This document shows positions 3 to 17,622 of a stretch of 64,000 bases of DNA, piece after piece (positions within the stretch are counted from its first letter, which is position 1; each line of letters begins with the position of its first letter). The notes below the pieces were generated by a model, which saw only the letters and a list, made by a program, of their open reading frames with translations, made no database searches and was not told the origin of the DNA. Source of the DNA: Sphingomonas sp. BT-65 (lineage in GTDB: Bacteria; Pseudomonadota; Alphaproteobacteria; Sphingomonadales; Sphingomonadaceae); NCBI RefSeq assembly GCF_026107375.2, contig NZ_JAPCIA010000001.1, positions 1,736,001 through 1,800,000 of the forward strand, read 5' to 3'. Both the position numbers and the translations under genes were made by a program.

Positions 3-1829
<1,827 letters not shown>

Positions 1830-1870: not shown

Positions 1871-2611
1871 ATGGCTGCCCTTGCCGATCCCGACTTCGCG
1901 CTGCATCCCGGCATCGACGCCGCCGCGCTGACGATCGCCTATCGCGCGACCGGGCGCATCTCGATCGAACCGTTCCTGACCGAGACAGCAGCAGCCGCGC
2001 TGCGCGATCACCTCGTGGCCCGCAAGGACTGGATGCTGGTGATGAATGCCGGCGAGAAGGTCTATGAGATGCCGCGCACCGCCGCCGCGGCGCTCACCGC
2101 CGACCAGCGCGCCACGCTCGACCGCAAGATCGGCGAATCCGCGCTGCACGACTTCCAGTATCGCTACGAGAGCATCCGCGTCGCGGACGATCCCGGCGTG
2201 CGCGGCGCGACTCTGCTCGAACGGTTCGCGGCCTTCCTGTCCTCGCCGCAAGTGATCGAGCTGCTGCGCGGAGTCACCGGCGCGCCGGTCGAGTTTGCCG
2301 ACGCCCAGGCCACCGCTTACGGCCCCGGCCATTTCCTCACCCGCCACGACGACGATGTCGAAGGCAAGGGGCGCCACGCCGCCTATGTGCTGGGCCTGAC
2401 GCCGGGCTGGCGCGCCGAATGGGGCGGGCTGCTGCTGTTCCACCGGGGCGAGCGCGATATCGATCACGGCTTCGCCCCCGCCTTCAACGCGCTGCGCCTG
2501 TTCGCCGTCCCGGCGGTGCACAGTGTCAGCCATGTCTGGCCCTATGTGCCGGAGCCGCGCCTGTCGGTGACCGGCTGGCTGCGCTCGCACGCGGCGACCG
2601 CACGCCCTTGA
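1871..2611 (+). CDS. 2OG-Fe(II) oxygenase, prolyl 4-hydroxylase-like
   Basis: A predicted cytoplasmic non-haem iron dioxygenase of the 2-oxoglutarate/Fe(II) superfamily, about 246 aa. The jelly-roll signature is visible: an HxD motif in FLTRHDDD (His159, Asp161), a distal His in VPAVHSVSH (about His217) and an Arg about 13 residues later that would bind 2-oxoglutarate. A TTG at 1835 would add 12 residues; I chose the ATG because the protein reads naturally from there, although neither start has a strong ribosome-binding site. It opens a four-gene forward run (gaps of 30, 10 and 12 bp) with two beta-hydroxylase-like proteins and a sulfotransferase. The substrate is unknown; a protein or peptide residue or a small molecule are both possible. 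Confidence 0.82.
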   Translation: MAALADPDFALHPGIDAAALTIAYRATGRISIEPFLTETAAAALRDHLVARKDWMLVMNAGEKVYEMPRTAAAALTADQRATLDRKIGESALHDFQYRYESIRVADDPGVRGATLLERFAAFLSSPQVIELLRGVTGAPVEFADAQATAYGPGHFLTRHDDDVEGKGRHAAYVLGLTPGWRAEWGGLLLFHRGERDIDHGFAPAFNALRLFAVPAVHSVSHVWPYVPEPRLSVTGWLRSHAATARP

Positions 2612-2641
2612 TTCGCGCGTCCGCATGGCGGAAAATGCGCC

Positions 2642-3580
2642 ATGCGCCTCAACCAGCCGCTGCTGAAGCTTCCCAAGGCCTTCGATGCCGACCGGCTCGC
2701 CGCCGAAGTGCGCGCGCTGCCCGCGACCGCGTGGCTGCCGCATCCCGGCAACTATCCCGGCAACGATGCGGTGCTGCTGGTGACCCCCGAGGGCCAGATG
2801 ACCAACGGCTTCACCGGCCAGATGGCGGCGACCGATCATCTGCACGCCTGCCCCTATGTCATGGAAGTGATGGGCGAGATCGGCGCTGTATGGGGCCGCA
2901 GCCGGCTGATGGGCCTCGGCCCCGGCGCGGTGGTGCCGCCGCATGTCGACGTCAACTATCACTGGCGCACGCATACGCGCATCCATGTGCCCATCATCAC
3001 CAACCCGCAGGTGCGCTTCACCGTCGGTGAGCAAAGCGTGCACATGGCACCGGGCGAATGCTGGGTGTTCGATTCCTTCCAGATGCACAATGTGCGCAAC
3101 GGCGGCACCGAGAAGCGCGTCCACCTCGTGCTCGACACGGTCGAGGGCGAGGAAATATGGGACCTGATTGACGCAGCCAACAACGGTACCGCGCCGCCCC
3201 CGACCCGCCCGCCGCGGCCGCTACGGTTCGAGACCGTCGACATGCACAAGATCATGTCGCCCTGGGAAGTGCGCTGCCACATCGCCTTCCTCATCGACTA
3301 TGTGCTGCCCAATCCCCGGCTGGAGGCCGTGCTCAACCGCCTCGACCGCTTCGCCGCGGCGTGGAGCTCGGCCTGGTCGGAATATGAGGGCTCGCCTGCC
3401 GGCCTCCCCGAATATCGCCGCCTGATCGCGGCCTTGCGGCAGGACCTGATGGCGAGCGGCGGCGGCAACCTGCCGCTGCAGAACCAGGTGCCGCTGGCGC
3501 GCGCGCTCGGCGAGCTGATCCTCGACGTCGCCGCGCCCGATCCCGCACCGGGCGGCACCGCCGTCCGCCTTGCTTCCTGA
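2642..3580 (+). CDS. Aspartyl/asparaginyl beta-hydroxylase-domain protein (first copy)
   Basis: A 312-aa Fe(II)/2-oxoglutarate enzyme of the aspartyl/asparaginyl beta-hydroxylase family. The N-terminal ~170 residues carry the fold: an HxD at His101/Asp103 (PPHVDVNYHW), the distal His149 in QMHNVRN and Arg159 as the likely 2OG anchor. The last ~120 residues are an alpha-helical extension beginning around MHKIMSPWEV that the second copy at 4227 lacks, so the two may differ in partner or substrate. No signal peptide is seen. It sits between an oxygenase and a sulfotransferase with short gaps, suggesting one transcript and successive modification of the same substrate. The target residue cannot be named from sequence. 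Confidence 0.85.
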   Translation: MRLNQPLLKLPKAFDADRLAAEVRALPATAWLPHPGNYPGNDAVLLVTPEGQMTNGFTGQMAATDHLHACPYVMEVMGEIGAVWGRSRLMGLGPGAVVPPHVDVNYHWRTHTRIHVPIITNPQVRFTVGEQSVHMAPGECWVFDSFQMHNVRNGGTEKRVHLVLDTVEGEEIWDLIDAANNGTAPPPTRPPRPLRFETVDMHKIMSPWEVRCHIAFLIDYVLPNPRLEAVLNRLDRFAAAWSSAWSEYEGSPAGLPEYRRLIAALRQDLMASGGGNLPLQNQVPLARALGELILDVAAPDPAPGGTAVRLAS

Positions 3581-3590
3581 AGCTCACCGC

Positions 3591-4214
3591 ATGATCATCT
3601 CGCATCGCCACCGCTTCGTCTTCACCGCGATTCCCAAGACGGGCACGCATTCGGTCCGCCAGGCGCTGCGCGAGCATCTCGGCCCCGACGATCTCGAGCA
3701 GGTCCGCCTGTTCGTGGAGAAGCGCTTGCCCTGGCCCGAGCTCGCCCGGCTCGGCCACGGCCATATCAGCCTGGCGGAGCTGCGCCCGGTGCTGGGCGAA
3801 GAGATGTTCGGCGGCTATTTCAAGTTCGCCTTCGTCCGCAATCCGTTCGAGCGCTTCGTCTCCTATTGCGCCTTCGCGACCAGCCAGCAGGGGACGTTCG
3901 ACCACGATCCCCAGGGCGTGATGCGCCACTTCCTGTTCGTGGCGCCGCCGCACCACCATATCGTCTTCCGCCCGCAGCACAGCTTCGTCTGCGCGCCCGA
4001 TGGCACCCTGCTCGCCGACCAGCTCGGCCGGGTCGAGGAGATGCAGGCGGGCTATGATGCGATCGGCGAGCGGATCGGCATCCCGTCGGCGCCGCTCGGC
4101 CGCGCCAACAGCTCGAAGCACGCCGACTACCGCAGCTATTACGACCAGCAGCTCAAGGACGGTGTCGCCCGGCTCTACGCCCGCGACCTCGAGCTGTTCG
4201 GCTACGAGTTCTGA
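3591..4214 (+). CDS. Sulfotransferase family protein (carbohydrate-type)
   Basis: A predicted PAPS-dependent sulfotransferase, 207 aa, of the single-domain Sulfotransfer_2-like type. The N-terminus holds the 5'-phosphosulfate loop (AIPKTGTHSVRQAL, about residues 13-26), and FVRNPFERFVSY is the 3'-phosphate-binding motif with the expected Arg and Ser. The ATG at 3591 begins right before the beta strand leading into the PAPS loop; an in-frame TTG at 3570 overlaps the previous stop and is less likely. It lies 10 bp after one beta-hydroxylase-like gene and 12 bp before another, so hydroxylation followed by O-sulfation is a reasonable inference. No membrane segment is seen, so it should act in the cytoplasm. 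Confidence 0.85.
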   Translation: MIISHRHRFVFTAIPKTGTHSVRQALREHLGPDDLEQVRLFVEKRLPWPELARLGHGHISLAELRPVLGEEMFGGYFKFAFVRNPFERFVSYCAFATSQQGTFDHDPQGVMRHFLFVAPPHHHIVFRPQHSFVCAPDGTLLADQLGRVEEMQAGYDAIGERIGIPSAPLGRANSSKHADYRSYYDQQLKDGVARLYARDLELFGYEF

Positions 4215-4226
4215 GCGAGGCCGCCC

Positions 4227-4850
4227 ATGTACCCCAACCCGTATCCCAACCCGCGCAAGACCCAGTCCATCCGCCGCCTCGGCCCGGTCGAGATCGGCGC
4301 GCTCCGCGCCGCGGTCGCCGCGGTTCCCGAGGCGCTGTGGGATGCCGAGAATGCCGGCAAGCCCAACAAGTTCGAAGCGCTCGATTCCACCCGCCACATC
4401 GTCTTCCGCTTCGTCTCCAACCTGCGCGACTGGCGCGAGAGCTATGACCGGCCGCTCTGGGCGGAATGGCGGCCGCTGCTGGAACCGGTGCTTGCCGCCG
4501 CAACCGCGCCCTATGGCTATGCCCGCGGCGCCTTTCCGCGCGTGATGCTCGCGCGCATGCGCCCCGGCGGCGTGATCCAGCCGCACCGCGACGCCAATCC
4601 GGCGGCGAAATGGCCGCACAAGATCCATGTGCCGCTCGAGACCAATGATGCGGTGACCTTCTTCGTCGACGGCGTCGGCCATCATTTGCCCGTCGGGGAA
4701 GCGGTGGAGGTCAACAATATGGGCGTGCACGCCGTCACCAACGCCGGCGCGACCGACCGCATCCACCTGATCTTCGAATATTACGATCTCGACCAGTCCG
4801 AGCCCGAATGGCTCGCGGCGGTCACCGCCGCGGCGCAGGGCGCGGCCTGA
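4227..4850 (+). CDS. Aspartyl/asparaginyl beta-hydroxylase-domain protein (second copy)
   Basis: A second, shorter (207 aa) member of the aspartyl/asparaginyl beta-hydroxylase family. His120 and Asp122 form the HxD motif (IQPHRDAN), with distal His168 (GVHAVTN) and Arg178. It is not a recent duplicate of the 2642 gene: outside the metal and 2OG motifs the sequences differ and the C-terminal helical extension is missing. The N-terminus is rich in Pro and Asn (MYPNPYPNPRK). It ends the forward run and converges on a small exported protein at 4857 with only 6 bp between stops. Likely cytoplasmic; the substrate is unknown. Confidence 0.87.
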   Translation: MYPNPYPNPRKTQSIRRLGPVEIGALRAAVAAVPEALWDAENAGKPNKFEALDSTRHIVFRFVSNLRDWRESYDRPLWAEWRPLLEPVLAAATAPYGYARGAFPRVMLARMRPGGVIQPHRDANPAAKWPHKIHVPLETNDAVTFFVDGVGHHLPVGEAVEVNNMGVHAVTNAGATDRIHLIFEYYDLDQSEPEWLAAVTAAAQGAA

Positions 4851-4856
4851 CCGGGC

Positions 4857-5099
4857 TCAGTTGCCCTTTTCGATGCTGATCGTCGGCTTGTTGAAGTCCT
4901 GCTGCGCCTGCCGCTTCGCATTCTCGCTCATCTCTTCCCACACCGCGCGGGTGTGGCAGATCTTCTTCTTGAAGCGGGTGGCGGTGCGCGACTGATATTT
5001 GCAGACCATTTCCTCTTCGGCATCCGAAGCGGACGTGGCGGGCTGAACGGCCTGCGCCGGCGCGGCAGCCAGCACGGCAAGGGCGATTAGGAGGGACAT
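4857..5099 (-). CDS. Small exported protein with a conserved Cys pair
   Basis: An 80-aa protein with a Sec signal peptide (MSLLIALAVLAAAPAQA, cleavage likely after AQA) and a mature part of about 63 residues. The mature part contains MVCKYQS, a basic stretch (RFKKKIC) and HTRAVWEEM, and ends in a charged tail. Two Cys about 16 residues apart could form a disulfide in the periplasm. Similar small Cys proteins with a TGSR/KKxC core occur widely in sphingomonads without an assigned role. The start at 5099 was chosen because it gives a clean signal peptide; an ATG at 5135 would add 12 residues. It lies 59 bp downstream of the TPR-sulfotransferase on the same strand and may share its transcript. 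Confidence 0.7.
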   Translation of the reverse strand: MSLLIALAVLAAAPAQAVQPATSASDAEEEMVCKYQSRTATRFKKKICHTRAVWEEMSENAKRQAQQDFNKPTISIEKGN

Positions 5100-5158
5100 C
5101 GTCGACGGCCTCGTTGTGATATCGGCCACAATCATACCTGAAACGCAACGCGCTTCAA

Positions 5159-7180
5159 TCACGCCGTGCCGGCACTCTCCGCGGTGGCCGGCAGCTCGTA
5201 GCCGAAGCGGCGCACCCACGGCTCGAGCACCGGGAGCGTCCACCACATCTTGTCGGCATAGCGCTCCCACCGCCCGCTGGCGCGGCGATAGACCTTCTCG
5301 GTCACCTGCGCATAGCTCGGCGTGCGGATATAGCCGCGCGCGGTGGCGGTGCGCTGATGGTCGAGCAGTTCGCCCTCCCAGGGGAGGCCGAGGAAGGCGA
5401 TCACCGGACGCAGCGCGGCCTCGGCATCGGCGACCATGTCCTCGTAGCGGATTTCCTGGACCTCGACCGGCAGCAGTGCGCGGCACTGCTCCCAATAGGC
5501 GAAGATGCGGTCATAGGTACGGCTGGCATTGTCGAGGTCGAGGAAGCTCGACATCGCCTCGGTCGGCTTGAAATTCTGCATGTAACAGCTCAGCACGACG
5601 TCGCACGGGTGGCGCAGCGCCAGGATGATCTTCGCGTCCGGGAATAGGCGGTGGATCAGCGGCAGCCGGATCATCGACAGCGGGTTCTTGTCGATGATCA
5701 GCGTGTCGCGGGTCGGCGGCGGCGACGCCTTGTCGACCTCGGCGAAGTAGAGCGCGCGCAAGTCGCGAATCGCGGCGGCGTCGAGCTCGGCGATGCGCTC
5801 GAACGGGCCGACCTCCTCGGCGATCTTCTCCAGGATCGGCACTTCCTCCAGCACATGCGTGCCGCTGTGGCCCATCAGCAGCGTGTCGAGCAGCGTCGTG
5901 CCCGAGCGCGGGAAGCCGACCAGGAACACCGGCGAAGGACGATCGCCCGGCTCCGGGCCCTGCTTCCACCGCGCGAGCCACTCTGCATTGGTCTGCTCGG
6001 CGAGCCCATCGATGCCGCGGCGATAGGCGCCACGGTCGGCGCCTGCCGCCAACGGCGTTTCGCCCATGATGCGGTTCATTTCCTGAAAGGCCAGGAACGC
6101 CTCGTCGATCAGCCCGAGCCGGTCGGCGAGCTGCCCGCGGAACTGCGCGACGGCGGCGGGATGGATCGCGCGCGACTGGGTCAGCCGCACCAGCTCGAGC
6201 GCCTTTTCGGTCTCGCCCCGGCGGTTGGCCGACAGCGCCCGCAGATAGTCGAGCTCGGGTCCCGTCGCGCCTGCGCGCTCGGCTTGTGCGATCAGCGCAT
6301 CGAGTTCCTCGACCCGGTTGGCCTTCTCGAGCAGGATGCCGAGATCGAGATAGCTGGCCGCGCTCGCCGGGCCGGCGCGCAGCGCGAAGCGGAACGCCTG
6401 CTCGGCCTTTTGCGGGTCGGACAGGTCGCTGAACGCCAACCCCATTGCGGTAAAGATGCGCGGATCGCGTGAATCGAGCTTCGCGGCGGCGCCCAGCGCC
6501 ATCAGCGCGCGCGTCGGGTGGTCGATCGCGGTGAGCATCCGCCCCAGCTCGAGCAGCGGCGCGGGATCCTTGGGCGCGAGCAGCGCCGCGCGCTCCATCG
6601 TCACGCAGGCTTCCTCGTGCCGCTCCGCTGCGGCCAGCACGCGGGCGATGTTGACGTGAACTTCGGACGACTGCGAATTCAACTCGCGCGCGCGCTGAAG
6701 CGCGCTCAGCGCACCATTCATGTCGCCGAGCTCGAAGCGCGCATTGCCGAGATTGTTCCACGCTTCGAAATCATCGGGCCGTTCGACCGTCAGCGCTTCG
6801 TAGAGCCACAGCGCCTCGGGACCGCGTCCCTGGGTGCGCAGAATGTCCGCTTTCATGCGCTGGAGGTCGGGCGAGTTCGCCGCCACGGGGCCGTCACAGA
6901 GCGCCATGGCCTCGTCGATCTGGCCTAGCGCCATCAGCGTCTTGGCCAGGTTGATCCGGTTGTCGGCGGTATCGCCGCCGCTGGCGATCGCGCGGCGGAA
7001 ATAGGCTGCGCCACTCTTGAGATCCCCCGCCTGGCTGCTCGCCACGCCCAGAAACTGGAGGATCGCGGCGTTGTTCTGCTGCGCGCGCAACGCCCCTTCG
7101 CCCAGCGCCCGCGCCGCCGGATAGTCGCCGCGCGTAAATGCCGCCATCGCAGCGTTCATCTGCTCAGCAATCGTCTTCAT
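5159..7180 (-). CDS. TPR-repeat sulfotransferase
   Basis: A 673-aa protein with two parts. Residues ~1-400 are a series of tetratricopeptide-like helical hairpins (for example AWNNLGNARFELGDMNGAL). From residue ~417 there is a sulfotransferase domain with the PAPS 5'-phosphosulfate loop PVFLVGFPRSGTTLLDTLL and a 3'-phosphate motif near residue 523 (LRHPCDVVLS). The architecture resembles bacterial TPR-sulfotransferases in which the repeats recognise a protein substrate, distantly like tyrosylprotein sulfotransferases. No signal peptide is seen. It lies directly downstream of a TonB-dependent receptor with a terminator between them and faces the hydroxylase/sulfotransferase run. Function in modifying a peptide, receptor or ligand is inference. 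Confidence 0.9.
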   Translation of the reverse strand: MKTIAEQMNAAMAAFTRGDYPAARALGEGALRAQQNNAAILQFLGVASSQAGDLKSGAAYFRRAIASGGDTADNRINLAKTLMALGQIDEAMALCDGPVAANSPDLQRMKADILRTQGRGPEALWLYEALTVERPDDFEAWNNLGNARFELGDMNGALSALQRARELNSQSSEVHVNIARVLAAAERHEEACVTMERAALLAPKDPAPLLELGRMLTAIDHPTRALMALGAAAKLDSRDPRIFTAMGLAFSDLSDPQKAEQAFRFALRAGPASAASYLDLGILLEKANRVEELDALIAQAERAGATGPELDYLRALSANRRGETEKALELVRLTQSRAIHPAAVAQFRGQLADRLGLIDEAFLAFQEMNRIMGETPLAAGADRGAYRRGIDGLAEQTNAEWLARWKQGPEPGDRPSPVFLVGFPRSGTTLLDTLLMGHSGTHVLEEVPILEKIAEEVGPFERIAELDAAAIRDLRALYFAEVDKASPPPTRDTLIIDKNPLSMIRLPLIHRLFPDAKIILALRHPCDVVLSCYMQNFKPTEAMSSFLDLDNASRTYDRIFAYWEQCRALLPVEVQEIRYEDMVADAEAALRPVIAFLGLPWEGELLDHQRTATARGYIRTPSYAQVTEKVYRRASGRWERYADKMWWTLPVLEPWVRRFGYELPATAESAGTA

Positions 7181-7194
7181 CGCTGCCGCCTAAA

Positions 7195-7238
7195 GCATTT
7201 TCCAGTCAGATGAAATCGTCTGACGACACGGAAAATGC
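7195..7238. repeat. Two-stem inverted repeat in the TPR-sulfotransferase leader
   Basis: A compact nested palindrome. Outer arms GCATTTTCC (7195-7203) and GGAAAATGC (7230-7238) pair perfectly, and inner arms GTCAGA (7205-7210) and TCTGAC (7219-7224) pair around an 8-nt loop. It starts 15 bp upstream of the sulfotransferase ATG, so on that transcript it would fold close to the ribosome-binding site. It resembles dispersed intergenic palindromes of alphaproteobacteria. Whether it is a repeat copy or a regulatory hairpin cannot be decided from one copy. Confidence 0.6.
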
Positions 7239-7249
7239 GGAACAGAAAA

Positions 7250-7284
7250 ACACAAAAAGAGGGCGGGAAACCAGTCCCGCCCTC
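7250..7284 (-). terminator. Rho-independent terminator of the TonB-dependent receptor
   Basis: Read on the minus strand, a perfect 10-bp stem (arms at 7275-7284 and 7259-7268, GAGGGCGGGA and its complement) with a 6-nt loop is followed by CTTTTTGTG. It lies 21 bp after the receptor stop codon and separates the receptor from the TPR-sulfotransferase. Confidence 0.85.
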
Positions 7285-7305
7285 CTTCAAGTCGCTGTGT
7301 CGCCG

Positions 7306-10300
7306 TCAGAACTTCAGGCGTGCCGACACATAGGCGCGGCGCCCGATCACGTCGTAGGTCGACGGGTCGGTGCCCGACTGAACGTTCGGCGCGTAGGTCG
7401 GCGGCTGGCGGTCGAAGGCGTTGTTGACACCCAGACGCAGCGTCATGTTCTCGACCTCGCCCTGCACCGCGAAGTCGAAATACCACACCGATTCCGGCCC
7501 GGTGAACGTCTCGCCGATATACTGGCGCGCCGCGCGGTTCTCCATATCGGCGATGTAGCGCACGCGGGTGTGGAACGAGAGCTCCTCGTTGAAGTTCCAG
7601 CCCATGTTCAGCGTCCCCTTCCACTCGGGGAAGCTGGTGCCGAGACCAGCGCCGAAATAGGAAGCGGTGCCGGCATAGTCCGTCTTCAGGCCGCCGAGAC
7701 CGGTGACCTTGAAGTCGAACAGATAGTTGAGCAGCAGGTTGAAGTTGATCGCCGACGCCGGGCCGACGAACTCGGTCGGCAGGCGATAGCCGAGCTGGAA
7801 GTCGATGCCCGAAGTCTTGACCGATCCCTGGTTGACGAACTGGAAGTAACCGGTCGCGGGATCGCCGCCCAGGCTCGGCGGCAGATAGATGCCGCTGATG
7901 TTGTTGCCCGAACGCGCGATACCCTGACAATAGGGGCTCGTCGCGCTGAGGCTCGAGTTGAGGTCGTTATAGCCATAGCACGACGCGATGATCTCGTTCA
8001 CGTCAGGTGCGAAGATCGTGTCGTTGATCTTGATGTTGTAATAGTCGATCGAGCCCGTGAAACCGGCGAAGTTGAACACCGCGCCGACGGTGAAGGCGTC
8101 CGATTTCTCCGGCTTCAGGTTCGGATTGCCCGTGGCGGTGATGAACGCCTGCGCACCCGGAGTCGCGACGAAGCTGTTGAGCGTCGCCGCGCCCACGCCG
8201 CCGATACCCGCATTCTGGCAGATGCTCGCCGCAGCCGCGCCGCCGGTCGTACGGAAGTTGGTGTTGAACGAGCACGGATCGAAGATCTGCGGGAAGCTGC
8301 CGCCGCCCGAGAACAGCTCGCCGAAGTTCGGCGCGCGGACCGAGTGCTGATAGCTGCCGCGCAGACGGACTTCCGGGATCGGCGCCCAGGTGAGCGTGCC
8401 GCCATAAGCCCAATCGCTCGACGACTCGCCGTCGATGCCGTTCTGGATGTCGTTGAAGTCGCTCTTCGAATGACGCGCGGTGAGCGAGAGCTCGAGCGTC
8501 TCAGCCCAAGGTGCGTTCTTGGCGAGCGGAATCAGCGCCTCGCCGAAGAAGTCGAGGAAGCTGTTGGTGCCGAGGTCCGGCGTGCTGGTGTTGAAGCCAG
8601 CAATCGGACCGAACAGCGAGCCCGGATCGAACTCGTAGCGGAAATCGCGCTTCTCGACGCCGAACGCCACCGACAGCGGACCCGCCGGAAGCTCGACCAG
8701 TTCGCCGGTGACATAGGCCTGGGCGATCTTCTGGGTGAAGGTCGTCTTGGTCACGCCGGTTTCATTGACGAAGTCGACGCAGTCCTGCGAGAGCGGCTGG
8801 ATGCCGAACGGGTTGAAGCCACCGTCGCAGAGGCTGGCACCGCCATCGCTAACCCCGCCAGGGGCGGATTCGAGCAGCTCCTGCACGCGCTGCACGTTGA
8901 CGTTGCCGCGCGCCTCCTGGTCGATGACCGTCTTGCCCCACGAGTAATAGGCCTCGTAGCGCCAGCCGTCCGCGATCTCGCCGCGCAGACCGGCAAGGCC
9001 CTGGATTACCTCGTTCTCGAACGCCTGCTCGCGCAGGCCGGTGCCGAGGAAGCGATAGCCGATGCGGATGCCCTCGGTAGCGCCGCTACCCGCCAGATTG
9101 GGGTCGTTGCCAACGCGCGTATTGAGCAGCGTCCGCAAATCGTTCGAAACGAACCTGTTGTTCACCGGCACGACGAAGCCGGTGATACGTCCCGGCGTCA
9201 CGCCCGCACCCGCGCCGCTGTCGTGAACGAGGTTCACGAGCGAGGAGCGTGCGTTGAGAACCGACGCGTTGCTGCCCACGCCGACGATGCCGGTGCTGAC
9301 CGGGGTCGGCGCGAGCGCGGTGGACGACTTGTAGTTGGTGTACGCCCCCTGGACGAACACTTCGAACGACGGGTTGATCTCGTAGTTCGCACGCGTGAAC
9401 GCCGAATAACGCTCCAGCGGGAGCACGAGGATGTTCACGATGTCGAAGTTGTAGCTGTAGAAATCGGGGAAATAGTTGAGGTTCGGGTTCGCCGGCGAAT
9501 CGAGTGCGTAGCGGAAGTTCGTGACATCGCGCGGGTCGTTGAAGGTACCGCGCCCGAACAGCGTGCCGTCGGAATTGAAGCCGAGCAACGTGGTCGTGGG
9601 GATGTCCTTTGCCGCCGAGCCATAGCCCTGGAACAGTGCAGTAACCGCCGCCTGGCTGATCGGGTTGGCCGCGCTGTCGGTGAACGAGCCGGTCGGGAAC
9701 GAACCCGTGGTCGAGGTCGCCTGCGCCGCGAACGCGCGCTGCGCCTTGATCAGGCCCTGGCGATCCGCATATTCGACCGACAGCGCGAAGTTGCCGCGAT
9801 TGTCGGCGAAATTGCCGCCGATCGTGCCGCTGATCTGGAGCTCGCGCGCGTCGGTCTGCGGGATCGAGTTCGAGTAGGTGGCGCGAAGGTCGATGCCCTC
9901 GAAATCGTCCTTGAGGATGACGTTGACCACGCCCGCGATCGCGTCCGCACCATAGGCCGCGCCGGCGCCGCCGGTGGTGACTTCGATGCGCTCGATCAGG
10001 CCCTGCGGAATGGTGTTGAGGTCGACCGCCATGGTCGTCGCCGACACCATCGGACGGCGGCCGTCGATCAGCACCAGGTTGCGGTTCGAGCCGAGGCCGC
10101 GAAGGTCGATGTTCGACTGGCCGTTGTTGCCCGGGTTGTTCGAGGTGGTCGTGCCGGCCGGGTTCACCTGCGGCAGCGTGTTGAGGAAGGTATCGAGCGT
10201 GACGTCCGCGTTCTGGGTCGTCTCTTCACCCGAGACCACCGCCACCGGGCTGTTCGAATCGAGGTTGGGACGGACGATGCGCGAACCGGTGACGACGACG

Positions 10301-10416
10301 GTGTCCTCTTCGGTCGGTGTCGCAGTCTCGGTTTGCGCGAAAGCGGGCACTGCGAACATCGTGCCGCTGATCAGCAGCGTCGAAGTCAACAGGCGCGTAC
10401 GTGCCATCGATACCAT
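7306..10416 (-). CDS. TonB-dependent outer-membrane receptor
   Basis: A 1036-aa ligand-gated outer-membrane transporter powered by TonB-ExbBD. A Sec signal peptide ends at VPAFA-Q near residue 27. A Ton-box-like EEDTVVVTGSRI and a plug domain follow (DLRGLGSNRNLVLIDGRR, and IERIEVTTGGAGAAYGADAI near residue 150), then a long Tyr/Asn-rich barrel ending in a C-terminal Phe (VSARLKF) as BAM substrates do. At over 1000 residues it belongs to the large oligosaccharide/peptide-type receptors common in sphingomonads rather than to small siderophore receptors. The start at 10416 places the signal peptide at the N-terminus; ATG 10407 is also possible. Its neighbours are sulfotransferases and hydroxylase-like enzymes. 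The ligand is unknown. Confidence 0.95.
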   Translation of the reverse strand: MVSMARTRLLTSTLLISGTMFAVPAFAQTETATPTEEDTVVVTGSRIVRPNLDSNSPVAVVSGEETTQNADVTLDTFLNTLPQVNPAGTTTSNNPGNNGQSNIDLRGLGSNRNLVLIDGRRPMVSATTMAVDLNTIPQGLIERIEVTTGGAGAAYGADAIAGVVNVILKDDFEGIDLRATYSNSIPQTDARELQISGTIGGNFADNRGNFALSVEYADRQGLIKAQRAFAAQATSTTGSFPTGSFTDSAANPISQAAVTALFQGYGSAAKDIPTTTLLGFNSDGTLFGRGTFNDPRDVTNFRYALDSPANPNLNYFPDFYSYNFDIVNILVLPLERYSAFTRANYEINPSFEVFVQGAYTNYKSSTALAPTPVSTGIVGVGSNASVLNARSSLVNLVHDSGAGAGVTPGRITGFVVPVNNRFVSNDLRTLLNTRVGNDPNLAGSGATEGIRIGYRFLGTGLREQAFENEVIQGLAGLRGEIADGWRYEAYYSWGKTVIDQEARGNVNVQRVQELLESAPGGVSDGGASLCDGGFNPFGIQPLSQDCVDFVNETGVTKTTFTQKIAQAYVTGELVELPAGPLSVAFGVEKRDFRYEFDPGSLFGPIAGFNTSTPDLGTNSFLDFFGEALIPLAKNAPWAETLELSLTARHSKSDFNDIQNGIDGESSSDWAYGGTLTWAPIPEVRLRGSYQHSVRAPNFGELFSGGGSFPQIFDPCSFNTNFRTTGGAAAASICQNAGIGGVGAATLNSFVATPGAQAFITATGNPNLKPEKSDAFTVGAVFNFAGFTGSIDYYNIKINDTIFAPDVNEIIASCYGYNDLNSSLSATSPYCQGIARSGNNISGIYLPPSLGGDPATGYFQFVNQGSVKTSGIDFQLGYRLPTEFVGPASAINFNLLLNYLFDFKVTGLGGLKTDYAGTASYFGAGLGTSFPEWKGTLNMGWNFNEELSFHTRVRYIADMENRAARQYIGETFTGPESVWYFDFAVQGEVENMTLRLGVNNAFDRQPPTYAPNVQSGTDPSTYDVIGRRAYVSARLKF

Positions 10417-10559
10417 AATAGTAGCACCCCTTTGTGCGGGCGTTTTCCGCCCTTGTTGATTGCGCAGGAGGGACCTCACGCAAGATTATGACACCATAAG
10501 TCTGGGTCTGGCGCGCGCACAATGGCGTTCGAGGGGGCAGCGTCATTTGTAATCGCGAC

Positions 10560-10594: not shown

Positions 10595-11482
10595 TCAGTC
10601 GGCCGTCACCGGCATCGATCCGGCGAGCAGTAGCGGGTCGATCCGCGCGCCGTTCCACTTCATTCCCCAGTGGAGATGCGGCCCGGTGGCGCGCCCGGTC
10701 GCGCCCACCGCGCCCACGGTCTGACCCCGCCGTACCACCTCGCCGACCTTCACGTCGATGCGCGAGAGGTGGAGGAAGGCGCTGTTGAGGCCCATGCCAT
10801 GGTCGAGCATCAGCAGCCTGCCCTCGAGCGTGAACGGCGCCTGCGCCGCCAGGATCACCACCCCGTCCGCCGGCGCGAGCACGGGCGTGCCGCTCGGCCG
10901 CGCGACATCGACGCCCGAATGGTAGGCGCCGGGCTCGCCCTTGTAGATGCGCTGCGAGCCGAACAGGCCCGAGATGCGCCCGGTCACCGGCCACATGAAA
11001 CGTTGCCGCCAGCCCTGCGAGGGCGAGCGGATCGCGCGCGCCGTGCTCATCTGGGCGAGCTCGCCCGGACGACGGCGCTGAAACTCCGCGGTCGGCTGCG
11101 AATAGCGCGGCAGCGTATTGAGCCGCTCGATCCGCCAGGCGCGCGGCTGTACCGTAAGCGTGCGCCGCATTGCGCTGCCATCGACCCGCGTCGCGACGAT
11201 CGCAGCCGCAGGCCCCGCGTCGCGGTCGAACGCGATGAGGAAACGGCCGTCCGCCGCGACCGGCACATCCTGGCCATTGAAGCTCAGCCGGCTGGTCAGC
11301 GCGGGCGCGGTGCCGAGCACGGTGCCGCCCTGGATCATCGGCCCGTCGAACGCGAAGTCGTTGCGCGCGGCGGAAGCGCGAGCCTGCCCCGCCGCAGCGT
11401 CCGCGGGTGCCAGCGCGGCGGGAATGGCGGCCGTCAGGCCAAGGGCGGCGCTCGCGATGACAAGCCCCCCCGTTGCCTTCAT
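10595..11482 (-). CDS. M23-family (LytM/NlpD-type) metallopeptidase
   Basis: A 295-aa exported protein with a signal peptide-like N-terminus (MKATGGLVIASAALGLTAAI), a beta-rich middle and a C-terminal peptidase_M23 (lysostaphin-like) domain. The zinc-site signatures are intact: HSGVDVA (H-x3-D) and GPHLHWG (HxH), plus LDHGMGLNSAFLHLS. An active enzyme would cut peptidoglycan cross-links in the periplasm, but many relatives are activators. Its ATG at 11482 overlaps the DUF2093 stop by four bases (ATGA), so it is the last gene of xseA-DUF2093-M23. The intact metal ligands suggest an endopeptidase rather than a degenerate factor. Confidence 0.9.
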   Translation of the reverse strand: MKATGGLVIASAALGLTAAIPAALAPADAAAGQARASAARNDFAFDGPMIQGGTVLGTAPALTSRLSFNGQDVPVAADGRFLIAFDRDAGPAAAIVATRVDGSAMRRTLTVQPRAWRIERLNTLPRYSQPTAEFQRRRPGELAQMSTARAIRSPSQGWRQRFMWPVTGRISGLFGSQRIYKGEPGAYHSGVDVARPSGTPVLAPADGVVILAAQAPFTLEGRLLMLDHGMGLNSAFLHLSRIDVKVGEVVRRGQTVGAVGATGRATGPHLHWGMKWNGARIDPLLLAGSMPVTAD

Positions 11483-11682
11483 GGCGTCATCATCGCCCGC
11501 GTCGCGATTTCGGCCGTGGCATAGGGCTCCTGCTTCTCGACGCTCCAGTAGCGCAGCGCCTCGAGCGGGATCTTCTCGCCGCTCACCGCGCACACGACAT
11601 GGTCGCCGGGCGCGAGCACGCGAAAGCCGTTCGCCATATAGTGGAGCCGCGCCGGGCGGGCGGTGTTGGACGACATCAGCAT
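11479..11682 (-). CDS. DUF2093 domain protein
   Basis: A 67-aa protein matching the short alphaproteobacterial DUF2093 family: ARLHYMANGFRVLAPGDHVVCAVSGEKIP, then ALRYWSVEKQEPYA. The core has a single Cys and an SGEKIPLEALRYWS stretch typical of the family. Its function is not known. It lies 27 bp after xseA and overlaps the M23 gene, a gene order that helps identify it. The start could be 11682 (MLMSS) or 11676 (MSS). Confidence 0.88.
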   Translation of the reverse strand: MLMSSNTARPARLHYMANGFRVLAPGDHVVCAVSGEKIPLEALRYWSVEKQEPYATAEIATRAMMTP

Positions 11683-11709: not shown

Positions 11710-13089
11710 TCAGAACAGATCGGGCTGTTCGGGCTTGGATGGAGCATAGGGTTTGCCGCCTGCGCGCTCAACCCGCGCATCCACCACGCCGTCGCGGAAA
11801 TGGAGCGTCACCGCGCCCGCCGCGCGCGCGTCCGCCGCGCTCGCCACCACCTTGCCGCTCGCCTTGGCGCCGACGCGGACATAACCGCGCTGGAGCAGAT
11901 TGTCGGGATTGACCGCGTCGAGCAGCTTGCCCGCCCCCTCCAGCCGGTGACGCAGTGTGTCGAGCTTGCGCTCGAGCACCGCCGGCCGCAGCGCGCCCGC
12001 CGCGCGGTCGAGCACGCCGCGCGCCACCGTCACGCGCCGCTCCAGCGCCCGGTCGAGCCGCGCGCCCATGTCGTCGGCCTTTTGCCGCTGCGGCCCGAGC
12101 AATGCGTCGCGCCGGGGCAGCACGCGCACCAAGGCCGCCAATCGCTCTCCGCCGCGCTCGTGATAGCGCCGCGCGCAGCGCTCGGCGCGCAGGCCGAGCG
12201 TGGCGATGCCGTTGGCGAGCTCGGCGCGCACGGGTACGGCCATCTCCGCCGCCGCGGTCGGGGTCGGCGCGCGCATGTCGGCGGCAAAGTCGCACAGGCT
12301 GGTGTCGGTCTCGTGCCCCACCGCCGAGATGACCGGGATCGAGCATGCCGCCACCGCGCGCACCACGACTTCCTCGTTGAACGCCCACAGATCCTCGATC
12401 GAGCCGCCGCCGCGCGCGACGATCACCAGGTCCGGCCGCCGCACCGACCCATCCTCCACCATCGCATCGAACCCGCGCACCGCCGCCGCCACTTCCTCGG
12501 CCGCGCCCTGGCCTTGCACCTTGACCGGCCAGACCAGCACGTGGGTCGGAAAGCGGTCCTCGAGCCGATGGAGGATATCGCGGATCACCGCCCCGGTAGG
12601 CGACGTCACCACGCCGATCGTCTGCGGCGCAAACGGCAGCGGCTTCTTGCGCGCCGGGTCGAACAGCCCCTCCCCGGCGAGCTGTGCCTTCAATTTCTCG
12701 AACAGCGCCATCAACGCGCCTTCGCCGGCCAGCTCCATCCGCTCGATCACGATCTGGTATTTGGAGCGGCCGGGGTAGGTGGTGAGCTTGCCGGTGGCGA
12801 TCACCTCGATCCCGTCCTGCGGGCTGAACGGCACCAAAGCCGCCTGCCCACGCCACATCACCGCGTCGATCACCGCGTCAGCGTCCTTGAGCGCGAGATA
12901 GACATGCCCCGACGCCGCACGCTTGAACCCCGAAATCTCGCCGCGCAGCCGGACATGGCCGAACTCGCCCTCGACCATGCGCTTCAGTTTCAGCGACAAT
13001 TCGCCGACCGAAAGCGGAGCGGCGTTGTCCCCCTCCCGCCCCTCGGCTACGAGCCGCGGCGGAACGTTATCGTCGAAGGGGTCTGACAT
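11710..13089 (-). CDS. xseA: Exodeoxyribonuclease VII large subunit
   Basis: A 459-aa large subunit of exonuclease VII, which degrades single-stranded DNA to oligonucleotides. An N-terminal OB-fold ([20 protein letters not shown]... [11 protein letters not shown]) leads into the catalytic region ([60 protein letters not shown]), a long Arg/Leu coiled coil and a C-terminal segment (LLQRGYVRV). The small subunit xseB is not adjacent. The ATG at 13089 has an AGGA Shine-Dalgarno and overlaps the purD start codon on the other strand. A longer frame upstream reads through purD and is not credible. Confidence 0.95.
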
Positions 13090-14356
13090 GAATGTCCTGT
13101 TGCTTGGGTCCGGTGGCCGCGAACATGCGCTCGCCTGGAAGCTCGCGCAATCGCCCCGGCTCGATAGCCTGCACGCGATCCCCGGCAACCCCGGAATCGC
13201 CCAATACGCGACTTGCCACGAGGTGAAGCTCACCGATCACCCCGCAGTGATCGAGTTCTGCCGCGCGCACGACATCGGCTTCGTCGTGGTCGGCCCTGAA
13301 GCGCCTTTGGTCGATGGCCTCAGCGACAGCCTGCGCGCCGCCGGCCTCCCCGTGTTCGGCCCCTCGCAGGCGGCCGCCCAGCTCGAAGGGTCGAAGGGCT
13401 TCACCAAGGACCTGTGCGCGCGCGAGAACATCCCCACCGCCGGCTATGTCCGCGTCACCGATCTCGCCACCGCCCGTGCCGCGCTCGCCCGCGATTTCCC
13501 GCGGCCGGTGGTGATCAAGGCCGATGGTCTCGCCGCGGGCAAGGGCGTGACCATCGCCTTCACCGACGAGGAGGCCGAGGCCGCGATCGCCGCGATCTTC
13601 GACAAGCCCGGCGGCGAGGCGGTGATCGAGGAATTCCTCGAAGGCGAGGAAGCCAGCCTGTTCATCCTCACCGACGGCAAGGCGATCATGCCGATGGGCT
13701 CGGCGCAGGACCACAAGCGCGTCGGCGACGGCGACACCGGCCCCAATACCGGCGGGATGGGCGCCTACAGCCCTGCCCGCGTGCTCACCCCCGAGTTGGA
13801 AGCCGCGGCGATCGACACGATCATCCGCCCCACCGTCGTGGCGATGGCCAGGGACGGCATTCCCTATTCAGGCGTGCTCTATGCCGGCCTCATGCTCACC
13901 CGCGCCGGCCCCAAGCTGATCGAGTACAACGCCCGCTTCGGCGACCCCGAATGCCAGGTGTTGATGCTGCGGCTCGAGGATGATCTGCTCGACCTCATGC
14001 TCGCGGCCGAGACCGGCGAGCTGGCCAGCCGTCCCGCCCCGCGCTTCGGCGCCGAGACCGCGCTCACCGTGGTGATGGCGGCGAAGGGCTATCCCGGCAC
14101 GCCCGAGACCGGCGGCGCGATCCGCGGGCTCGACGCCGCCGAGGAAACCGGCGCGCAGGTCTTCCAGGCCGGCACGCGCATGGATGGCGACACGCTCGTC
14201 GCCGCGGGCGGCCGCGTTCTCACGGTCACCGCCACCGGCGCCAGCGTCACCGAAGCGCAGGCGGCCGCCTATCGCGCGGTCGACGCGATCGACTTCCCCA
14301 CCGGCTTCGCCCGCCGCGACATCGGCTGGCGCGAAGTGGCGCGCGAGCGGGGCTAG
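13088..14356 (+). CDS. purD: Phosphoribosylamine--glycine ligase
   Basis: A 422-aa GAR synthetase, which joins phosphoribosylamine and glycine with ATP in step two of purine synthesis. Visible are the N-terminal [19 protein letters not shown], the ATP-grasp segment GSKGFTKDL... [25 protein letters not shown] and [12 protein letters not shown]. Length matches the family (~425-430). The start at 13088 follows an AAGGGG Shine-Dalgarno and overlaps the divergent xseA start by two bases. Its stop shares a CTAG palindrome with the convergent ankyrin gene. Glycine as substrate links it loosely to the glycine cleavage operon later in the window. Confidence 0.97.
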
Positions 14357-15036
14357 TCCGGCTCCGCAATCGCCTGGTCGGCGTCCCCGATCAGATATTG
14401 CGCCATCGAGGTGCGCGCCGGATTGATCCGGTGCGGCGGGAACAGCAGCAGGCACAGCACCGCGGTATCGCGCCGCGCCCAGCTCCCCCAGCTGAGCGGC
14501 GAATCCCCATGCGCGTCGCGCTGGTCGAGCACCGCGCCCGCCGCGATCAGCCGCTCGATCGTCCCCTGCGTGGCATAAGCCGCCGCGCGGTGCAGCGCGC
14601 CCTCGCCGCGGTTGCGCACATCGCGCATGAAGCAACCAGTCTCAGTCCCGGGAATCGTCGCCTTGTTGGGATCGGCGCCAGCCGCCAACAGCACTGCGAC
14701 AACCGCCTCCTGTCCCGGACTGTCGCGGCTCACCGCGTTGTGCAACGGCGTCTCGCCGCTCTCCGGATCGGCGCCATCGGCGTCCGCGCCTTGCTCGATC
14801 AGCCAGGCGCACAGCCGCCAATGCCCGTGGAACGCCGCGCCGCCGAGGCCGAGGTTGCGGCCGAGCCGCTCGAGCGGCACGCCTGCCTCCACCAGCCGCC
14901 GGATCGCGCTCACATCGCCATAATAGGCGCACCAGCCGATCAGGTCGGCGCCCTCGACGCGCGCCTGCGGATCGCCGCCGCCGGCGAGCCAGTCGAAGAT
15001 CAGGTCGGTGCGGCCCGCCGCGATGCGTTCCAGCAT
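14353..15036 (-). CDS. Ankyrin-repeat protein
   Basis: A 227-aa protein built of about five ankyrin repeats, seen as [74 protein letters not shown] and [14 protein letters not shown]. It has no signal peptide or membrane segment, so it is probably a cytoplasmic protein-binding scaffold. It has no operon partner. Its stop codon is inside the CTAG shared with purD. The partner is unknown. Confidence 0.88.
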
Positions 15037-15143
15037 GTCGCGCCCTCCGGAATGTGGCGCGTCGTCATATCACGGAGCACCGTCCCGGCGAACTCTTGCC
15101 GCGGCGAAGCGTTGACGTTGTTCAACCCTATCCGAGGCCCCCG

Positions 15144-15350
15144 ATGGACAGCACCACCGAATCCCTGTCCCCCGCAGGCGCCGCATCGATGTTCGGCTGG
15201 GTAACGGTGACGCATCTGATCGTCGTTGCGCTGTGCGCGGTCGGCGCCATCGCGATCCTTGTCTGGGGCCGCCGGCTGCGCCGCAAGCGCCTGGAGGCCG
15301 AGCGCACACGCGAGGAAGACGCCGGCCGCGACCAGCCGCCACCCGCATAG
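15144..15350 (+). CDS. Small single-pass membrane protein
   Basis: A 68-aa protein with one transmembrane helix (FGWVTVTHLIVVALCAVGAI and following, residues ~17-42), then a strongly basic juxtamembrane stretch (GRRLRRKRLEAERTRE), which by the positive-inside rule faces the cytoplasm. A GAGG Shine-Dalgarno lies 6 bp before the ATG. It ends 8 bp before the convergent CorC-like gene. I do not recognise a family; supported by the ribosome-binding site, codon use and the clear helix. Confidence 0.6.
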   Translation: MDSTTESLSPAGAASMFGWVTVTHLIVVALCAVGAIAILVWGRRLRRKRLEAERTREEDAGRDQPPPA

Positions 15351-15358
15351 CACGCAGG

Positions 15359-16663
15359 CTATCCGGTCTCGCTCACCAGCAGCTTGTCGATCTTGTGCCC
15401 GTCCATGTCGACGATCTCGAACCGCCAGCCCTGCTCGGTAAAGCTCTCGCCCTCCTGCGGCAGCCGCTTGAGCACCGCGAGCGCGAGGCCGGCGACCGTC
15501 GCATAGTCGCGATCCTCGGGCAGCTCGATCCTGATCCGCTCGGCCAGCGCGTCGGCGGCGAGCTGGCCCGAGACGAGCAGCGATCCGTCATCGCGCACCA
15601 CGATCGCGGGTTCGTCGCCGAAATCGGCGTCCGACACGAACTCGCCCGCGATCGCCGCAAGCAGATCGGCCGGGGTCACGATCCCCTCGAAATGCCCATA
15701 TTCGTCATGGACGAAGCCCATCGGCACGGCGGCACGGCGCAGCGCGCCCAGCGCATCCATCGCGTCGACCTGGTCGGGGAGCACCGGCGCGGCGTGCATC
15801 AGCGCGCGCAGGTCGAGCGGCTGCCCAAGGATCAGCGCCGTGACCACGTCGCGTGCCTGCACCACGCCGACCACCGCGTCGACCGAACCCTCGGCAACCG
15901 GCAGGCGGGTATGCGGCGTCTCGGCCAGCGCCTTGCGGATTCCGGCCTCGTCGAGATTGGCGTCGATCCAGTCGACCTCGGTGCGCGGCGTCATCACCTC
16001 GCGCACCGGCCGGTCGGCGAGCCGCACCACCCCCGAGATGATCGAGCGCTCATGCTCCTCGATCACTCCCGAATGCGTCGCCTCGGCCACCAGCATGTGC
16101 AGCTCCTCGGCGGTGACGCGGTTCTCCGATTCGCGGTTCATGCCGAGCAGGCGGAACACCAAAGCGCTGCTCCGGTCGAGCACCCACACCACCGGTGCGG
16201 TAGCCTTCGACAGCCACAGCATCGGCGTCGCCATCACCACCGCGATCGGCTCAGGCGAGCGCAGCGCGAACTGCTTGGGTACCAGCTCGCCGACGATCAG
16301 CGAGGCATAGGTGGTGAGCGCGATGACGATCGCGAAACCGATCGTCTGCGCGGTCTCCTTCTCCGCCCCCAGCAGCTCGATCCGCGCCGCGGTGGGCATA
16401 CCCAGGCTCGCGCCCGAATAGGCGCCGGCGAGGATGCCGATCAGGGTGATGCCGATCTGCACGGTCGAGAGGAACTTGCCGGGATCGGCGGCGAGGTCGA
16501 GCGCGGTCTGCGCGCCGCGCTTACCGGTGCGCACCATCGCCTCCAGCCGCGCCTTGCGCGCGGAGACGATCGCGAGCTCGGACATCGCGAACACACCGTT
16601 GAGCGCGACCAGCGCCAGGATGATCGCGACGTCGATCCAGGGAAATGGGGGGAGCGGGTCCAT
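15359..16663 (-). CDS. CNNM/CorC-type transmembrane protein (DUF21, CBS pair, CorC_HlyC)
   Basis: A 434-aa integral membrane protein of the hemolysin C/CorC/CNNM family. An N-terminal DUF21 domain has about four hydrophobic helices (first: DVAIILALVALNGVFAMSEL). A CBS-domain pair follows (VREVMTPRTEVDWIDAN onwards), then a C-terminal CorC_HlyC domain (DGSLLVSGQLAADALAE... ALAVLKRLPQEGESF). Relatives export or regulate Mg2+/Co2+; the hemolysin name is historical. The family member with DUF21 is distinct from cytosolic CorC beside ybeY. There is no operon partner. The ATG at 16663 fits the first helix. Confidence 0.92.
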   Translation of the reverse strand: MDPLPPFPWIDVAIILALVALNGVFAMSELAIVSARKARLEAMVRTGKRGAQTALDLAADPGKFLSTVQIGITLIGILAGAYSGASLGMPTAARIELLGAEKETAQTIGFAIVIALTTYASLIVGELVPKQFALRSPEPIAVVMATPMLWLSKATAPVVWVLDRSSALVFRLLGMNRESENRVTAEELHMLVAEATHSGVIEEHERSIISGVVRLADRPVREVMTPRTEVDWIDANLDEAGIRKALAETPHTRLPVAEGSVDAVVGVVQARDVVTALILGQPLDLRALMHAAPVLPDQVDAMDALGALRRAAVPMGFVHDEYGHFEGIVTPADLLAAIAGEFVSDADFGDEPAIVVRDDGSLLVSGQLAADALAERIRIELPEDRDYATVAGLALAVLKRLPQEGESFTEQGWRFEIVDMDGHKIDKLLVSETG

Positions 16664-16791
16664 TGGCCTGCCGAACCCATAGTCGCATTCAGCTGAGTTT
16701 CACAACGCCCGTCTACATCGCGGGTCGATGCGAGGGCGGAACAACGCCGCCGCTCGCGCGATTCTGGTCACGAAATCAAAGGAGGAAGTTC

Positions 16792-17469: not shown

Positions 17470-17470
17470 G

Positions 17471-17622
17471 AAATCCTCCCCTTCAGGGGAGGTGGCATCG
17501 CGCAGCGATGACGGAGGGACCGCCGCGCAGACGGCGGAAACGGCGCAACCGGGTACCGCCCTCTTCGGGGCGGCCCCTCCACCGCCTTCGGCGGTCCCCC
17601 TCCCCCGGTGGGGGGAGGAGTT
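17471..17622. repeat. Twin-unit inverted GC-rich element A (REPIN-like)
   Basis: Fills the space between the OmpA lipoprotein and tadA exactly. The left unit begins AATCCTCCCCTTCAGGGGAG and continues to GACGGAGGG; the right unit, facing it, ends GGTGGGGGGAGGAGTTT. The middle holds further short hairpins (for example ACCGCC TTC GGCGGT). The left unit closely resembles the left unit of element B at 58486. Probable non-autonomous dispersed repeat; it may also act as a bidirectional terminator. Confidence 0.8.

Follow-up and report, generated by a model that had tools for sequence, protein, structure and literature searches.

Human AspH joins tetratricopeptide repeats (TPRs) to an Asp beta-hydroxylase (AspH) domain, and the animal protein-tyrosine sulfotransferases (TPSTs) reside in the Golgi/ER. 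Iyer and co-workers reportedly drew, in 2010, a comparative-genomic link between 2-oxoglutarate (2OG) enzymes and secreted peptides or siderophores. Among the ribosomally synthesized and post-translationally modified peptides (RiPPs), two papers (PMC9266682, PMC8498205) describe CanE, an Fe/2OG enzyme that beta-hydroxylates an Asp of a lasso precursor peptide, and mention lasso clusters with putative sulfotransferase genes. A table of PMC10040529 gives close numbering to protein clusters for lasso B2, sulfotransferase, Asp beta-hydroxylase, sulfotransferase, PqqD and Asn-synthase, with their adjacency unstated in that table. The methanobactin (mbn) operons (PMC3621798) combine a TonB-dependent transporter with modification enzymes, and in some groups MbnS is proposed to sulfonate a peptide threonine. 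Here we describe a seven-gene block from Sphingomonas sp. BT-65, in a stretch of 64,000 nucleotides (the window; contig NZ_JAPCIA010000001.1, positions 1,736,001 to 1,800,000). It lies between clpB and M23/xseA and encodes three Fe/2OG oxygenases (OG, BH1 and BH2), two sulfotransferases (ST2 and TPRST), a small exported protein (CysP) and a TonB-dependent receptor.

The block has predicted Asp/Asn hydroxylases and sulfotransferases in common with the lasso clusters that carry CanE or sulfotransferase genes, but it differs from them in having neither a PqqD/RiPP recognition element (RRE) protein nor an Asn-synthetase-like cyclase among its seven genes. With the methanobactin operons it shares a TonB-dependent transporter beside modification enzymes that include a sulfotransferase. 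However, the enzymes of the block are Fe/2OG hydroxylases and a TPST-like protein, there is no MATE exporter in the block, and none of the seven proteins matched MbnB/MbnC/MbnA-type families in Pfam or NCBIfam, although a tiny precursor could escape such a scan. The catalytic domain of TPRST aligns with animal TPSTs over nearly its full length, PRSGTT loop and EE pair included, with remote similarity. TPRST has no signal peptide (judged by eye) and so should be cytoplasmic, unlike the animal enzymes. The TPR plus AspH architecture, known from TPR-containing AspH, recurs in sister islands. Searches of an open-access library listed no paper describing a TonB-receptor/hydroxylase/sulfotransferase set of this kind; the author of an earlier note on this DNA knew of no described system with this exact set. 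Nor do we know of sulfotransferase/AspH/CysP islands at clpB in the 2010 work of Iyer and co-workers.

In the Sphingomonadaceae, a receptor, CysP and receptor-matched hydroxylases and sulfotransferases are kept together in the clpB-M23/xseA niche. We lean slightly towards reading this island as a receptor-cognate set that modifies a ribosomally made, exported polypeptide.

To assess the association, we took a census, based on open reading frames (ORFs), of 77 clpB regions, one of them the window's own, out of 142 genomes with clpB. Twenty of the regions were chosen by AspH hits or were the window itself, and the other 57 are the fairer test; 40 regions were chosen by clpB alone, from genomes not already selected, and hence lean negative. 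Receptors, counted together with OMP_b-brl_4 (Oar-like) proteins that were identified through their likeness to a single member scanned with Pfam, were present in 62/77 regions. A sulfotransferase was found in 36/77, with a receptor in all 36, and a hydroxylase in 39/77, with a receptor in 38 (the exception being G057). Both enzyme kinds occurred in 31/77 regions. Sulfotransferases were present in 31/39 regions with a hydroxylase vs 5/38 without (P=3.4e-9). The corresponding values were 15/19 vs 5/38 for the 57 regions chosen without AspH hits (P=1.7e-6), and 5/7 vs 5/33 for the 40 picked by clpB alone (P=0.006). The co-occurrence search proposed in the earlier note thus had a positive outcome, hydroxylases and sulfotransferases sharing clpB islands and nearly always in the company of a receptor. 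Among the places listed, those within 15 kb of clpB were 26/75 AspH places (detected with BH1; 0.7 expected), 18/37 places of TPR-sulfotransferases (TPR-ST; 0.3 expected) and 51/150 CysP places (about 1.3 expected). CysP was within 3 kb of 14/37 TPR-ST and 17/75 AspH places (0.1 and 0.2 expected). All these chance expectations assume 3.3-Mb genomes and ignore relatedness.

Sister islands contain TPR-AspH, a TPR-PF13759 fusion, TPR-ST, a PF13640 oxygenase and a ~340-aa protein (U340). For example, the island of another genome of the genus (G091, L204) reads clpB, TPR-ST, OMP_b-brl_4 receptor, TPR-AspH, CysP, U340, receptor, an unlabelled gene, M23 and xseA. The contents vary much among genera, 15/77 regions have no receptor, and the receptors in L039, L052 and L054 are as low as 25–34% identical to the window's. 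This is what one would expect if the clpB-xseA interval were a permissive integration site collecting unrelated genes, their co-location being without functional meaning. We hold this to be very unlikely, given the strong hydroxylase-sulfotransferase association among the classes profiled and the recurrence of the set away from clpB. In L040 and L041, a series ST2-BH2-TPRST-BH1 stands directly behind another TonB receptor, with BH1 and TPRST distant from those of the window (36–39% and about 30% identity).

The whole block is also conserved in close relatives. A BH1 search of named genomes gave four close loci, all from Sphingomonas and three of them from metagenome-assembled genomes. All seven genes were in the same order, from clpB to M23-xseA, in three of them, and in the fourth the contig stopped inside the receptor. 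The independent scattering among relatives that, according to the earlier note, would speak against a functional unit was not seen. In these loci, ST2 (85–86%), BH2 (81–83%) and BH1 (79–80%) were the closest to the window, next to the receptor with about 80% (85% over the L036 fragment). OG (55–56%), TPRST (51–52%) and CysP (38–54%) had lower identities. In TPRST of L034, 185/397 residues of the TPR half and 161/272 of the catalytic half were identical to the window's. A further genome, G114 (L038), had the same gene set, rearranged and with two CysP genes; over L034–L038 the receptors were 72–85% identical to the window's, L036 being a fragment only. In L035, from a metagenome-assembled Sphingomonas, the receptor was in two pieces (14627–17215 and 17218–17676), possibly an assembly error. 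With its earliest start, OG had a 4-bp overlap with the stop of clpB, both in four Sphingomonas (L034–L037: OG 9245–9970, clpB end 9248) and in another genus (L203: OG 1793, clpB end 1796), an arrangement that suggests translational coupling of OG to the heat-shock chaperone.

In the window, the forward set OG, BH1, ST2 and BH2 faces CysP, TPRST and the receptor on the reverse strand (Table 1). The gaps in the forward set are 30, 10 and 12 bp, and 41 bp separate clpB from OG. The ORFs, strands, families and the three gaps listed in the earlier note were borne out by the ORF list and Pfam. Its view that such an enzyme density exceeds chance in housekeeping surroundings also held. The block is flanked by clpB on one side and by M23 peptidase, xseA and purD on the other. 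It holds two of the three PF05118 matches of the whole 4.08-Mb host genome and one of its three PF13469 matches, and PF05118 had no match in any of 14 control genomes. The third AspH of the host (L056) is also within 2.5 kb of a receptor.

Table 1 Features of the clpB island in the window.
Feature	Position	Strand	Evidence
clpB, 3' part in frame, left island edge	42..1829	+	orthologues adjoin the island in other genomes
OG, 2OG-Fe(II) oxygenase, 246 aa	1871..2611	+	PF13661 9e-22
BH1, Asp/Asn beta-hydroxylase-fold enzyme, 312 aa	2642..3580	+	PF05118 8.5e-19
ST2, Sulfotransfer_2 enzyme, 207 aa	3591..4214	+	PF03567 3.5e-14
BH2, short Asp/Asn beta-hydroxylase, 207 aa	4227..4850	+	PF05118 7e-10
CysP, small exported two-Cys protein, 80 aa	4857..5099	-	family alignment, n=24
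TPRST, TPR array + protein-tyrosine-sulfotransferase-like domain, 673 aa	5159..7180	-	PF13469 1e-35 + TPRs
TonB-dependent receptor, 1033–1057 aa by start choice	7306..10479	-	PF07715 + PF00593
M23 peptidase gene, right island edge	10595..11593	-	order kept in L034, L035, L037
xseA, then purD	11710–13131		

With 68.4 and 39.3 bits against a cut-off of 22.6, and with the HxD...H motif and the 2OG Arg present, BH1 and BH2 are assigned by sequence to the Asp_Arg_Hydrox family (PF05118). The active sites, which had been described as intact, were indeed so at the residues scored. H101, D103, H149 and R159 of BH1 (alignment of 11 rows), H120, D122, H168 and R178 of BH2 (14 rows) and E445, E446, K498 and R523 of TPRST (14 rows) were invariant. 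The same was true for H217 and R230 of OG (11 rows, one of them a fragment, HxD not being scorable).

The catalytic domain of TPRST was nearest to the protein-tyrosine sulfotransferases, which provided seven of the nine PDB matches at E≤1e-6 (best 8.9e-14); the best of them spanned residues 12–264 of 274, nearly the whole domain. The other two were to CurM and to an olefin synthase domain. TPST2 has a catalytic set of Arg/Glu/Lys/Ser. For part of this set a counterpart was seen in TPRST: the Arg of PRSGTT and the EE pair align with the TPSTs, and the EE and Lys498 are invariant among relatives. For the TPR array, O-GlcNAc transferase was the nearest among the natural proteins shown in the search of solved structures, and for OG it was OGFOD1 (E=2e-6). 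The solved relatives nearest TPRST and OG act on proteins. BH1 weakly resembled proline cis-4-hydroxylase and some entries that carry the name beta-hydroxylase, and ST2 and BH2 had no meaningful relative among the solved structures. In 149 genomes of the family, matches were found for ST2 in 11 (own included), for BH1 in 50 (E≤0.001; close in few) and for TPRST in 31 (E≤1e-30).

If the substrate is a polypeptide with a Sec signal, BH1 and BH2 (Asp/Asn type) and OG (prolyl-hydroxylase type) would hydroxylate it in the cytoplasm. There, ST2 and TPRST would sulfonate the same polypeptide from 3'-phosphoadenosine 5'-phosphosulfate, the TPR array holding the chain while it is unfolded. The modified polypeptide would then be exported and act as, or together with, the cognate receptor. 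Signal peptides were recognised by eye in only two proteins of the block, CysP and the receptor, whose plug and barrel scored above the Pfam cut-off (PF07715 79.1 bits, PF00593 117.9 bits).

The earlier note had allowed for a peptide, protein or secreted molecule as substrate. In its broader version, the target of the enzymes is a small molecule or a siderophore-like ligand that is synthesized elsewhere and imported by the receptor. Ligand import is the usual task of TonB receptors, siderophores are known to carry beta-hydroxy-Asp groups, and BH1 has, besides its weak likeness to proline cis-4-hydroxylase, one to a model for hydroxylases of nonproteinogenic amino acids (E=7e-5, below the model cut-off). 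On the other hand, Pfam recognised no NRPS (non-ribosomal peptide synthetase), no PKS (polyketide synthase) and no inner-membrane transporter in the seven-gene block, so that, judging from these genes, an imported ligand would be out of reach for the cytoplasmic enzymes; this argument covers the window's block, the sister islands being not fully annotated. Also, the solved relatives of TPRST and OG are modifiers of proteins, and BH2 and ST2 have relatives in peptide clusters. We therefore consider a small-molecule ligand possible but doubtful. The transporter-less block, the signal peptides of receptor and CysP, the TPST-like domain, the TPR arrays and the RiPP relatives together favour a polypeptide. 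The peptide or protein part of the earlier proposal gained from the AspH relatives in lasso-like clusters, and an arbitrary secreted molecule is disfavoured.

These lasso-like relatives emerged from the short AspH genes called (<235 aa, n=19). Eight were in receptor loci; seven shared their locus with genes for PqqD and an HPrK-like kinase, and six of these seven also with one for an Asn-synthetase-like cyclase. None was in both kinds of locus and four were in neither, one of them (L036) with a receptor fragment at the contig end. Together, PqqD and HPrK-like genes were found in eight loci (L042–L044, L047–L050, L053), seven of them with a cyclase, and profile search detected no receptor in these eight and no PqqD in L055. 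For L048, L049 and L050 the best NCBIfam models were those of lasso PqqD (68.1 and 57.2 bits, cut-off 80) and of lasso cyclase (241.8 and 140.7 bits, cut-off 525). As all these scores are below cut-off, we term the loci lasso-like. L050 also encoded an ST2 relative (37%) and a GT8 protein. L042 had a BH2-like (39%) and a BH1-like (33%) gene plus two sulfotransferase-type genes, a quartet resembling that of the window. These Sphingomonadaceae clusters are candidates for making sulfated, beta-hydroxylated lasso peptides. Separately, in one clpB island (L173) a prolyl-oligopeptidase-family (Peptidase_S9) gene (6731–8728) lay directly beside the TonB receptor, recalling lasso isopeptidase neighbourhoods.

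We placed 93 receptors in a FastTree tree, with long branches flagged, and compared the labels of neighbouring genes (enzyme distance limit 2.5 kb) with 300 label shuffles. The labels were BH, OG5, TPRST, U340, CysP and any enzyme. One clade consisted of 20 receptors, every one of them with an enzyme no farther away than 2.5 kb, in most cases TPR-AspH together with U340. The window's receptor formed a separate clade on a long stem with those of R647 and G114. Label changes were fewer than the shuffled mean for BH (12 vs 28.6), OG5 (7 vs 17.4), TPRST (11 vs 23.6), U340 (10 vs 21.4) and CysP (18 vs 24.3), and for none of them was a shuffle as low (0/300). Five receptors (L187, L204, L205, L209, L212) grouped with an OMP_b-brl_4/CarboxypepD_reg (Oar-like) one. 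Each had a TPR-ST beside it, two of these very long (974 and 996 aa) and one called at just 90 aa.

CysP shares the family pattern C-x(14-15)-C-x-[TS]-x3-W, with both Cys and the Trp invariant in the alignment of 24. Its model has a predicted beta-hairpin and helix (pLDDT 91–95 over residues 31–70). The window's CysP matched no Pfam family (also when scanned as 4857–5117), and its fold had no PDB match at E≤0.001. Matches occurred in 104/149 family genomes and in just 6/188 class-level genomes (G000 and G091 excluded). Among the clpB regions, CysP was found in 33/77 and always with a receptor (33/33); any enzyme was present in 27/33 regions with CysP vs 17/44 without (P=0.0002). Passages of a top-down study of the Novosphingobium periplasm (PMC3608174) contain neither 'hydroxyl' nor 'sulfat', and no protein of that study could be matched to CysP.

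A number of observations on the enzymes, on CysP and on the receptor tree weigh against a polypeptide-modifying set that is cognate to the receptor. Pfam recognised no RiPP precursor, RRE or exporter among the seven genes. Five clpB islands had a sulfotransferase and no detected hydroxylase, and eight had the reverse. Near clpB, 33 of 38 AspH ORFs in the fetched loci had a receptor within 5 kb and 32 a sulfotransferase. Away from clpB a receptor was as close to only 16 of 44, a sulfotransferase was near 19, and nine were in PqqD loci. Seventeen of the 44 stood alone, without receptor, sulfotransferase or PqqD locus. The AspH family as a whole is therefore not receptor-bound, and the association belongs to the clpB island and some other loci, not to AspH genes generally. 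The lone ORFs (L102–L104, L109, L113–L115, L117–L119, L121, L123, L124, L131, L134, L135, L051) encode mostly 300–420-aa proteins, possibly a different branch of the family that may act on lipids.

The lone ORFs would suit an alternative in which AspH-type enzymes hydroxylate the acyl chains of envelope lipids, as LpxO and OlsC do, while the head groups of lipids or glycans are the targets of the sulfotransferases, with the receptor as a bystander. The TPR-AspH of a sister island in a same-genus genome, which matched OlsC best (5e-29) and LpxO at 1e-18, both below the NCBIfam cut-off, points in this direction and away from a polypeptide. The alternative is also favoured by the placement of ST2 in Sulfotransfer_2, a family that includes carbohydrate sulfotransferases. 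Yet BH1 and BH2 of the window matched the LpxO model of NCBIfam at only 0.007 and 0.002, and a bystander role leaves unexplained why receptors accompany the hydroxylases and sulfotransferases of the clpB islands so constantly. We judge the lipid alternative unlikely.

As for CysP, its link to the enzymes was lost in the 40 regions for which clpB was the sole criterion (2/3 vs 10/37, P=0.21). Overall, 6/33 islands with CysP had no enzymes, and 17/44 without CysP had them. Outside the family, the six class-level genomes with CysP had no AspH or PF13469 gene near it. A CysP paralogue also recurs at a second site without receptor or enzymes (L161, L163, L165, L167, L168, L169, L172); in L163 it sits between genes for an SpoU-type rRNA methylase and an S4-type ribosomal protein. 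We compared the CysP tails, from the first Cys on, of 41 members within 4 kb of an enzyme with those of 32 others. The contents of N, D, P, S, T and G did not differ; Tyr was rarer (P=0.044) and Trp commoner (P=0.043) near enzymes, with no multiple-test correction. With a mean of 0.2 Tyr near enzymes, CysP is hardly an acceptor for tyrosine sulfation. As modifiable residues were not enriched, we dropped CysP as a dedicated sulfation substrate and kept it as a weak candidate. We regard CysP as a partner of the receptor and only possibly as a substrate.

In the receptor tree, the label 'any enzyme' was weakly clustered (20 changes vs 24.1 shuffled, 13/300 as low), and common descent of linked genes contributes to the clustering. 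Set against the single labels, this indicates that receptor clades go with a certain kind of enzyme more clearly than with having an enzyme at all.

For the polypeptide reading, a short list of possible substrates remains. The receptor itself is a tentative choice, CysP a somewhat weaker one, and an unlinked peptide ligand is improbable. A bolder version, which we think rather unlikely, is that sphingomonad TonB receptors are hydroxylated and sulfated in the cytoplasm before export by dedicated TPR-guided sets, the clade-specific decoration setting ligand or phage specificity. If it were true, receptor decoration would be a bacterial counterpart of tyrosine sulfation in the Golgi and of AspH hydroxylation, and covalent sulfation would add a new layer to the biology of the outer membrane. 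The island also gives bacterial relatives of the protein-tyrosine sulfotransferases and Asp beta-hydroxylases a natural context.

U340 was present in 26 fetched loci, 22 of them census clpB regions, and had no match in the host genome at E≤0.001. A Pfam scan of six members left five without a match, and one (L171) matched PF13469 at 0.0017, below cut-off; three members scanned with NCBIfam had none. A profile comparison of U340 with TPR-ST was not independent, TPR-ST rows being in both alignments, and we relied on the fold search instead. The U340 model (pLDDT 93.3) gave 17 PDB matches at E≤0.001, with tyrosylprotein sulfotransferases on top. Sixteen were titled sulfotransferases, and the 17th was Teg14, a sulfotransferase as well. 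All had a probability of 1.00, yet the TM score by query was just 0.35–0.46. The model thus predicts a sulfotransferase fold for U340, nearest to the protein-tyrosine sulfotransferases, and adds to these islands a sulfotransferase family hardly recognised by Pfam and NCBIfam.

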